Below are positions 16,250-29,803 of a stretch of DNA of 64,000 nt, piece by piece. The notes under the pieces are model-generated. The model ran no database searches and had not been told where the DNA came from. It worked only from the letters and a program-made list of their open reading frames with translations. The position numbers and the translations under genes were made by a program. This stretch comes from Gammaproteobacteria bacterium (GTDB lineage Bacteria; Pseudomonadota; Gammaproteobacteria; Pseudomonadales; Pseudohongiellaceae), in contig PBYU01000023.1 in the NCBI GenBank assembly GCA_002730035.1, forward strand, positions 38,496 to 102,495, written 5' to 3'. How positions within the stretch are numbered: position 1 is the stretch's first letter; every line of letters starts with the position of its first letter.

Positions 16250-16339
16250 GGACACTAACAATTTAACAACTTAGCTTTGTATTCGGCTATTAGATTTTTA
16301 TATAACTCGGTCACTTATGTTGTCAAATTGTTAGTGTCC
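16250..16339. repeat. inverted repeat A with GGACACTAA...TTAGTGTCC ends (21-nt arms, one mismatch)
   Basis: Left arm ggacactaacaatttaacaac 16250-16270; right arm gttgtcaaattgttagtgtcc 16319-16339. Confidence 0.9.
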
Positions 16340-16394: not shown

Positions 16395-16617
16395 TTATTG
16401 CTCTGATAATGGACGTTTTTTAATATAAACCCATCCTTCTCGCCCGTCAGCGAGAGTAAACCCTCTGGCTTTGACTTCGATTAATAGCTTCCTACATTCG
16501 TCGGGCTGGGCACCGGTAACCTTAGATAAAGTATCTAAAGATCTTCCGTCTTTAAACCTTGAGTCACTTAGCATTTTATTTAAAAGCTCTATCCTGGCAG
16601 GCTCACCTACACCAGTT
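16395..16617 (-). pseudogene. C-terminal gene remnant (small helix-rich/winged-helix-like segment)
   Basis: Minus-strand frame reads ...TGVGEPARIELLNKMLSDSRFKDGRSLDTLSKVTGAQPDECRKLLIEVKARGFTLADGREGWVYIKKRPLSEQ*; no upstream start or body, runs into the palindrome. Confidence 0.55.
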
Positions 16618-16618
16618 A

Positions 16619-16672
16619 AAAATGGGGTCAGAGTAAATATACAGTACTGTATATTTACTCTGACCCCATTTT
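16619..16672. repeat. perfect 54-bp palindrome (27-bp arms)
   Basis: aaaatggggtcagagtaaatatacagt|actgtatatttactctgaccccatttt, all 27 pairs complementary. Confidence 0.97.
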
Positions 16673-16680
16673 CTCGCAGA

Positions 16681-17814
16681 TTATCGGGTTAGCGACGGAT
16701 CGGCGTGCATCAACGCCAGCGCGGCGAATCCCGTGGCTGCGTCGGCCATCATGAGACCTCTGTCCGACGTCGGATCCCTCTCTCTATTGAGTGAGGAGGA
16801 AGGCCAAAGACCGGTGGTCGGGTCCTGATTCTGCACCAACCACGTGAGGGCCCGACTCAGGTTCTCTTGCTCGGGGGAAACACCGGTCCGCTGAAGCGCG
16901 AATGCGATCAACCCGGTGGCGTATCCATCGCTCCCGGGATTGGGATTGAGCTCATCCGGCCGCTCCCAGGACCCGAGTGAAGGGAGACTCCAACCGCCGT
17001 CGTCGTTTTGCAGGCGCCCCAGGGCAACTATGATGGATCGCTGTTGATCCTGAGTCAGAAGATCCGAGAGTTCGCCTGAAGCCCAAAGCAACATGACTCG
17101 GTCCAGTGCTGACCGGTCTTCCCAGTCCTCCTGAAGATAGCCCCTGAGCGATGCCACGTTATCCTGGAATTTGGTCGAGCTCGCGTACTGGTCCGGCGCG
17201 ATTCCAACTGCAACGGCGGCAAGTGCGGCTCCGAAATATGCCGCACCCTCCGACTCCCAAGGGGCCAGGTTGAAGTATAGCCAAGCCCAGCCACCGGACC
17301 CCTTTCCGCGTTTGAACTGAAGCTTCCAGAGATGCTCGAACGCCTGTCGTGTTTCGCTGCTCAGGCGTCCCTCCTCGGCGTCACGGTTGGCCAAGATCAG
17401 CGCGTTCAAAATGGCCTCCACCCCTCTCGACTCACTGGCCTTGGGGAGGCCGAATGTCTGATCGGGGTAGAATGGGTCCACTTCGTTCCACAACGCCACT
17501 CGCTTCTCGACGCCTTCCAGCAGGTCTACTTCGGGAGCGGCGAGTTTGGTCTCTCCAAGAACCGCGCGAAGTGCTGGACGAGCCAGCGCGTACGGCAGCG
17601 ATGTGTGACAGGAGACGCAAGACGTATTCTGGTCGCGGGCCGCCGTGGACCAAGTCATCCACCAGGCCAGTCGTCCATCGAGGTAGTCGGCTGCCGCCGC
17701 TTGATCCCACTCAGCCGACAACGCGGGCTGTGCCTGTGACTCGACCTCCCCAGGTCCAAGCACGAGGAACATACTCACTACACATAGCAGGGTAGTCTGC
17801 GGGATAGTCTTCAC
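16681..17814 (-). CDS. squalene/terpenoid-cyclase-like (alpha-toroid repeat) protein with c-type haem motif
   Basis: DTSCVSCH-type motif (NTSCVSCHTSLPYALARP), LQNDDGGWSLPSLGSW, TGLIAFALQRTG. Probable GTG start at 17814 behind GGAGG; the longer ORF extends to 17913. Confidence 0.7.
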   Translation of the reverse strand: MKTIPQTTLLCVVSMFLVLGPGEVESQAQPALSAEWDQAAAADYLDGRLAWWMTWSTAARDQNTSCVSCHTSLPYALARPALRAVLGETKLAAPEVDLLEGVEKRVALWNEVDPFYPDQTFGLPKASESRGVEAILNALILANRDAEEGRLSSETRQAFEHLWKLQFKRGKGSGGWAWLYFNLAPWESEGAAYFGAALAAVAVGIAPDQYASSTKFQDNVASLRGYLQEDWEDRSALDRVMLLWASGELSDLLTQDQQRSIIVALGRLQNDDGGWSLPSLGSWERPDELNPNPGSDGYATGLIAFALQRTGVSPEQENLSRALTWLVQNQDPTTGLWPSSSLNRERDPTSDRGLMMADAATGFAALALMHADPSLTR

Positions 17815-18201
17815 ACTCGTCACCTCCGTTAGGGCTGGTTTTCGGCCGACCGCCTGTCCTCGGAACGTGCACTCCGATGGATGTTCGACATAGAGTAGCT
17901 CCCCTCGTGACACGCATTTTCGTAGAGCACGTCATCGAACTTCCGGAAATCCATCTCACAGCCGTGTGTAGGGAGAATAGAAGCTATCTCCATTTAAGTC
18001 CACGTCTTCATAGTCAGAAAATCCCATCCGTCCTGTTTGTGGTCTGGCCCCGGTTTTACGGACCACCTCATTATGAGGCCGTAGACAAAGTAGGTAACTA
18101 TCGCGTAGCAGTTAATGCCAGGATGATGGACTCTTCAGATATCGAAGGGATAGAGTTACGTATGTTCAACGGCACGGACATGTAATACAGCAATTGCAGG
18201 T

Positions 18202-18269
18202 GACACTAATAGTTTAATAGCTTTAGGCTTGGAGCTGTATCGTCGTTAAGCTATTAAACTATTAGTGTC
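18202..18269. repeat. inverted repeat B (22-nt perfect arms)
   Basis: gacactaatagtttaatagctt 18202-18223 and aagctattaaactattagtgtc 18248-18269. Confidence 0.93.
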
Positions 18270-18298
18270 CCCTACTTTTCCAGAAAGGAAGTAACAAC

Positions 18299-29713: not shown

Positions 29714-29803
29714 GGGGACTCCCACAACTTAACATTGGCCAGGTAATCGCAGATTAATGCCGCAGAAGTTAAGTTGTTAAGTTGTTAAGTTGTGAGTGTC
29801 CCC
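29714..29803. repeat. inverted repeat C with GGGGAC...GTCCCC ends
   Basis: ggggactcccacaacttaac 29714-29733 and gttaagttgtgagtgtcccc 29784-29803 (near-complementary). Confidence 0.8.
29769..29792. repeat. three tandem copies of 8-mer TTAAGTTG
   Basis: ttaagttg ttaagttg ttaagttg. Confidence 0.95.

Follow-up and report, generated by a model that had tools for sequence, protein, structure and literature searches.

The window analysed here, a stretch of 64,000 nucleotides from a Gammaproteobacteria bacterium, contains an intergenic palindrome without a single mismatch, and the question it raises is where such a structure comes from and whether it belongs to a mobile family. The sequence from 16619 to 16672 consists of two arms of 27 nt (16619-16645 and 16646-16672) which, on recomputation, are 100% complementary across a spacer of 0 nt, as the earlier note had described; the symmetry stops at these limits, the flanking bases 16618 (A) and 16673 (C) being unpaired. 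For a perfect zero-loop palindrome with 27-bp arms the probability is about 4^-27 per position, and a chance origin is negligible. The parts of the locus are as follows.

16619..16672, no strand: the whole perfect zero-loop palindrome, 54 bp, very probably a non-autonomous TIRtron derivative with symmetric AAAAT/ATTTT borders
16624..16645, plus strand: left terminal inverted repeat GGGGTCAGAGTAAATATACAGT; the autonomous element L120 (genome G055) has the same outer 22 bp
16646..16667, minus strand: right terminal inverted repeat, the reverse complement of the left repeat and directly fused to it
16619..16623, no strand: left border AAAAT, which pairs with the right border (consensus across copies AATAAAT), either target sequence or the outermost part of the arm
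16668..16672, no strand: right border ATTTT, which pairs with the left border (consensus across copies ATTTATT)
16395..16619, minus strand: orphan open frame (74 aa and a stop) that adjoins the left side of the palindrome
16681..17913, minus strand: neighbour gene, not part of the element, its stop 9 bp from the palindrome (8 bases between)

The distance to the stop of the 16681 gene agrees with that reported earlier. The statement that the palindrome lies at the end of a gene remnant held in part: the open minus-strand frame does adjoin it, and continues into and through it, but no homologue of this frame was found among the other searched genomes of the genus, and it may be a gene remnant, which is plausible but unproven, or an orphan.

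Counting copies in the genome and in relatives had been proposed as a check, and the motif is not unique. In the window's own genome (G000; 3.96 Mb in 107 contigs, assembly 93% complete), the motif GGGGTCAGAGTAAAT has 37 matches at one mismatch or fewer, against 0 for the reversed-pattern control. These copies are mostly arranged as inverted pairs, and their spacings are discrete, with zero-loop cores of 44 bp and forms of 72-74 bp in which the interiors vary and the arms still pair. The exact 14-mer occurs in 39 of 118 relative genomes and, within the genus, in 36 of 73, with a patchy distribution of 0 to 64 matches per genome. BLAST with the window segment recovers the palindrome of about 52 bp alone, at up to 100% identity and at unrelated loci, in dozens of congeners, including G057, G055, G035, G039, G042 and G003. 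A scan of GTDB for paired motifs gave, among the matches listed, Rheinheimera, Halioglobus, Arenimonas, Lysobacterales, Chromatiales and other lineages, chiefly Gammaproteobacteria. Viral contigs and plasmids were both searched for the motif without a match, and a literature search with the bare motif returned no mobile-element paper among the matches listed.

Such a structure next to a stop codon could be a two-way intrinsic terminator serving the 16681 gene and the gene next to it, and not mobile. Its strong stem is followed by T-rich tracts on both strands and is placed after the gene, and most of the 53 distinct copies in the 44-bp class lie between convergent (21) or tandem (19) genes, with a median of 26 nt to the stop codon, these figures resting on crude ORF calls. 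The same calls nevertheless show divergent genes around 8 copies and put 2 within ORFs (the last 3 lie at sequence edges), and the motif brackets a transposase gene in some relatives. The earlier note had held that conservation solely as a terminator of the 16681 gene would speak against a mobile element; instead, the same sequence stands beside unrelated genes in many species. A static terminator is highly improbable as the source of the palindrome, and since copies also occur between divergent genes this role does not explain the family; the stem with its T-rich tails could still act as a two-way terminator, as a secondary effect and not as its origin.

A Y1_Tnp search over the relatives found proteins of about 240 aa in many motif-rich species. 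In G013, G035, G055 and G008 an intact Y1/HUH transposase gene lies exactly between inverted copies of the motif (loci L118, L119, L120 and L130), the exact terminal inverted repeats (TIRs) being 809-810 bp apart. The G055 element (L120) ends in GGGGTCAGAGTAAATATACAGT and its reverse complement, which are the 22 bp of the window core letter for letter, and the ends of the remaining three are one base off (ATATCCAGT). On the contig that carries the full L120 element there is also a deletion derivative of 283 bp (L120:842-1124) with identical ends, in which the 3' end of the transposase gene has been kept, and the sizes encountered form a series of 810, 283, 91, 60, 54 and 44 bp. It is this graded series of internal deletions that links the zero-loop palindrome to the elements of about 810 bp. 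To judge from the two ends (left ATACAG-TA-GTTTT, right AAAAC-TA-CTGTAT), a deletion at the TA common to both would turn the full element into the 44-bp form. Genomes with a close homologue of the transposase P0001 contain 64, 20, 27, 42 and 8 motif matches, against a median of 0 in 68 others (Mann-Whitney p = 3e-4), an association that is indicative, the species not being independent; 31 of the 36 motif-carrying congeners have assemblies without a close homologue (at least 65% identity) of the P0001-type transposase. The transposases closest in sequence carry the closest TIRs, and the TIRs of other subfamilies are also of the GGGG type.

P0001 has 230 aa with the motifs TNHVHLLV, LWEGRY and YIELNP, and matches Pfam Y1_Tnp at 7e-14. 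A subclass 2.1 of such transposases has been delimited by the signature NHVH, W[EQ] and YIELNP and a median length of 238 aa (Quentin et al. 2018, PMC6006769); its authors regard it as probably equal to the TIRYT described by Di Nocera et al. 2013 (PMC3733652), for which the TIR consensus is GGGGWSAS. P0001 has the NHVH, WE and YIELNP motifs and the length of subclass 2.1, and not the signature of the REP subclasses 2.2, 2.4, 2.5, 2.7 or 2.8, and the TIR motif GGGGTCAG fits GGGGWSAS.

The first reading of the locus had been a REP/RAYT-type or other mobile palindrome. A canonical REP/REPIN would consist of two GT[AG]G-footed REP hairpins mobilised by a RAYT (TnpA_REP), and would agree with an intergenic, dispersed and Y1-transposase-linked palindrome, as well as with REP_Tyr_transpos being the best NCBIfam match of the transposase; its score of 73.5 bits, however, lies under the 80-bit cut-off, and the match of P0001 to the E. 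coli-type TnpA_REP structure 4ER8, the only solved chain among the matches listed, is marginal (E = 0.083). The 54-nt single strand has a folding energy of -25.4 kcal/mol (z = -12.1 relative to shuffled sequences), but a single 22-nt arm forms no stable hairpin (-0.3 kcal/mol) and contains no GT[AG]G-footed one, so that the halves are not paired REP stem-loops. REPs were, moreover, not found for the YIELNP/NHVH subclass 2.1 (PMC6006769), and the GGGGWSAS-type TIR also argues against them. Because isolated element ends do not fold on themselves (about -0.5 kcal/mol), canonical REP/REPIN status fails; this reading is very unlikely and already largely refuted. The core of the first reading stands, namely a dispersed mobile-type palindrome tied to a transposase of the Y1 (IS200/RAYT) superfamily that lies elsewhere. 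Measured against IS200/IS605, the ends again do not fold alone and the motif is YIELNP, with no Y---Q, while at L118, L119, L120 and L130 the Y1/HUH gene sits between terminal inverted repeats, as in a TIRtron. By sequence, the cognate transposase belongs with the TIR-associated TIRYT (subclass 2.1), bracketing itself with the same inverted repeats, and the palindrome is a TIRtron-derived double end, not a canonical REP/REPIN, which joins an already named but poorly studied family.

With TIRtrons and TIRYT (PMC3733652, PMC6006769), the elements share a Y1 transposase of about 230-240 aa with NHVH and YIELNP, GGGGWSAS TIRs, and the dispersal of TIRs as singles and dimers; unlike the TIRtrons described there, the TIR dimer is here a zero-loop perfect palindrome which is itself a widely dispersed unit, and the species group is new. 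REPIN/RAYT systems (TnpA_REP, for instance in E. coli) are similar in their non-autonomous inverted dimers and their intergenic bias, and in a distant Y1 transposase acting in trans, as would be the case here as well, but here the halves lack the REP hairpin and the GT[AG]G foot, the transposase is of another subclass, and its gene sits inside the repeats as an element. HUH/Y1 chemistry like that of IS200/IS605 (IS608, ISDra2) and their non-autonomous derivatives is expected by homology (Y1_Tnp), although the IS200 family has subterminal hairpins and Y---Q where these elements have long perfect TIRs and Y---NP. Bacterial MITEs are likewise short, non-coding, TIR-bearing and graded by internal deletion, and are mobilised in trans as these elements probably were; in contrast to them, the borders are inverted and not direct repeats, and the linked transposase is of the Y1 type. 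No target-site duplication was seen, the window copy having inverted borders and no direct repeats.

Other elements of this kind were noticed alongside. The window holds three sister-family inverted-repeat elements of the GGGGACACTAA type or near it (16250-16339, 18198-18273 and 29714-29803; two are less than 2 kb from the palindrome), which start with GGGGACAC or a near variant, fit GGGGWSAS with small deviations, and are likely products of another TIRYT subfamily (compare L128, GGGGACACTGATCAGA). In Lysobacterales (L158, L170, L178, L180, L191 and L200), 60-bp elements have a GGGACAGAGTAAA-type palindrome placed exactly within a GGGGTCAGAGTAAA palindrome.

A second question is how the copies have changed since they arose. 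Perfect palindromes account for 26 of 59 copies, and in these 59 the deviations from consensus comprise 83 that are one-sided and 10 that match on both sides (0.7 expected if independent); since one-sided deviations predominate, copies decay arm by arm. Symmetric subfamilies have A/A or T/T at position 15, and the window copy is undecayed, identical to the T-type consensus and to the L120 ends, which is consistent with a comparatively recent copy. Taking perfect symmetry as a sign of recent origin, as the earlier note did, is reasonable in view of these proportions but is not proof of recency. The same figures bear on the idea that the palindrome was born in place, when template switching (fold-back synthesis) acted on one GGGGTCAG motif, and not by transposition. 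Inner and outer arms do covary element by element, and tandem repeats of a flank plus a truncated end suggest replication slippage at hairpins; yet the excess of one-sided changes implies that arms are not constantly corrected, and the discrete length classes, whose interiors are homologous across unrelated loci, the recurrence of the same 52-bp palindrome in many species and the match of the TIR to the transposase element all tell against it, leaving in-place birth extremely improbable. For one paralogous pair (C38/C79; L043/L032), quasi-palindrome correction was considered and set aside, a 23-bp deletion between direct repeats AAAGGGGTCAG being simpler.

The bases outside the GGGG/CCCC feet are AT-rich, complementary from side to side and element-specific. 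At least 3 symmetric border bases occur in 63 of 143 motif pairs, against about 12 in shuffled pairings, and in 11 of 18 distinct transposase-bearing elements by manual count; in the 44-bp class, border position 1 is paired in 82% of copies against 52% on shuffling. Such borders represent either a palindromic target or an outermost arm that is part of the element. At L162, L227 and L023/L043 one element lies exactly at the centre of another palindrome. Scars accompany some elements:

L194, L199, L227, L284, L285, L304 and about 30 more: flank repeats with truncated ends (X-GGG..-X-[element]-Y-..CCC-Y), far above chance

The arrangement X-GGG(truncated end)-X-element was found on 22 left flanks and its mirror image on 22 right flanks of 200 elements (1.2 and 2.0 expected), so that about 11% are scarred on a given side; copies in related genomes are not fully independent, and these border and scar statistics describe a pattern and not a mechanism. 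The outer edges of the scars are precise and the inner ones ragged, and the scars may come from hairpin-induced slippage or from abortive transposition. Neither the symmetric AT-rich borders nor the end-scars are described in the portions of the TIRtron/TIRYT accounts at hand (PMC3733652, PMC6006769). It is conceivable, though we regard it as rather doubtful, that TIRYT elements choose AT-rich palindromes able to form hairpins as their targets and integrate at the centre of the dyad, older copies also being entered at their centres, and that repeated attempts leave stacked scars; the order would then be flank X, truncated end, flank X, element, flank Y, truncated end, flank Y. If true, dyad-centre insertion would be a targeting mode, and the scars a trace of single-strand transposition that failed or was repeated, neither of which the literature available describes for TIRYT transposases.

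A cognate transposase was looked for in the G000 assembly (93% complete) and not found; the best matches to P0001 there are a 323-aa gene at 26% identity and a fragment at 34%. The sole Y1_Tnp match of this genome lies on a contig other than the window's, which bears out the earlier observation that the window has no transposase. Mobilisation in trans, proposed on that ground, would fit this absence from window and assembly; because the cognate gene was not found in the host genome, the G000 copies look like orphans formerly mobilised in trans, and for the same reason they are filed as derivatives and not as autonomous members. The genome does carry a TIRYT-like gene of about 322 aa with a Bac_DnaA_C helix-turn-helix (L038:3631-4596; G000 C15:144630-145595). 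Nearly all of its carriers have one copy, and about two thirds of congeners have the gene at 74-96% identity. In 18 of 18 pattern-readable sequences Q, G, E, S or R stands in place of the first HUH histidine, the tyrosine at the catalytic position is Phe in some, and by sequence the gene looks like a catalytically dead, domesticated transposase.

Taken together, the palindrome is very probably a minimal non-autonomous TIRtron derivative, the fused ends of an element of about 810 bp, which spread as a miniature element in trans. The starting point would be a TIRtron of that size, with the TIR-associated Y1 (HUH) transposase gene between GGGGTCAG-type repeats; internal deletion would then have fused both 22-bp ends, the shared 2-bp TA yielding the exact junction, and the 44-bp double end with its short symmetric AT-rich borders would have spread by a transposase acting in trans. 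The route would likely be single-stranded, the palindrome folding as a hairpin in ssDNA, the transposase cutting at the GGGG/CCCC feet and the strand being pasted into an AT-rich, often palindromic intergenic site. Directly observed are the sequence itself, its copy number and dispersal, the motif pairs around the transposase gene, the series of deletions and the lack of a cognate gene in the host assembly; we infer this ssDNA route, the mobilisation in trans, and transposition rather than recombination or gene conversion as the cause of spread; beyond the anatomy, the mechanism would follow from homology to Y1 transposases.

Comparison of empty and filled sites, also suggested beforehand, gave no clean pair among the congeners compared. 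In all comparisons, divergence between orthologous flanks sets in at the element or close to it, and for this reason the elements may mark rearrangement breakpoints instead of simple insertions; the host and many relatives are draft genomes, in which local joins at repeats may be wrong. At the window locus, the inspected congeners have a different neighbour downstream of the 15018-16220 gene and no empty site. One site compared across G013, G008, G035 and G118 is occupied by the transposase element in two of the species, the others having diverged there, which is suggestive but not clean, and the G000 element at L037:4651, between two genes, is absent from the syntenic gap of G063, a gap too diverged to fix the borders. 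The same region (L037; G000 C13:14500-23200) has six motif pairs or remnants in about 5 kb, with one gene between each and the next (among them CoA transferase, VOC, GlcG-like and hydrolase genes). Five other species have the CoA-transferase gene at 88-93% identity, and since it sits there in other contexts, the sequences suggest gene relocation near these elements. An integron-like cassette array on this contig (C13), where BLAST matches in other species stop close to the motif pairs, was considered and dropped, homologous genes occurring elsewhere with no motif nearby and BLAST matches stopping at gene ends.

TIRtrons have been named since 2013, and in the portion of the TIRYT literature found activity tests are not reported. 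The family is already known, and what is added here is a species group together with target and scar patterns. The genus offers a natural series of intact elements, deletion derivatives and zero-loop palindromes with common ends, with several transposase subfamilies that have their own TIRs and about half of the species without the motif; with this series, direct tests become possible of how transposase and ends are related, of the smallest unit that is mobile and of the target rule, and the case shows how the fused ends of a mobile element can be recognised in a perfect genomic palindrome.
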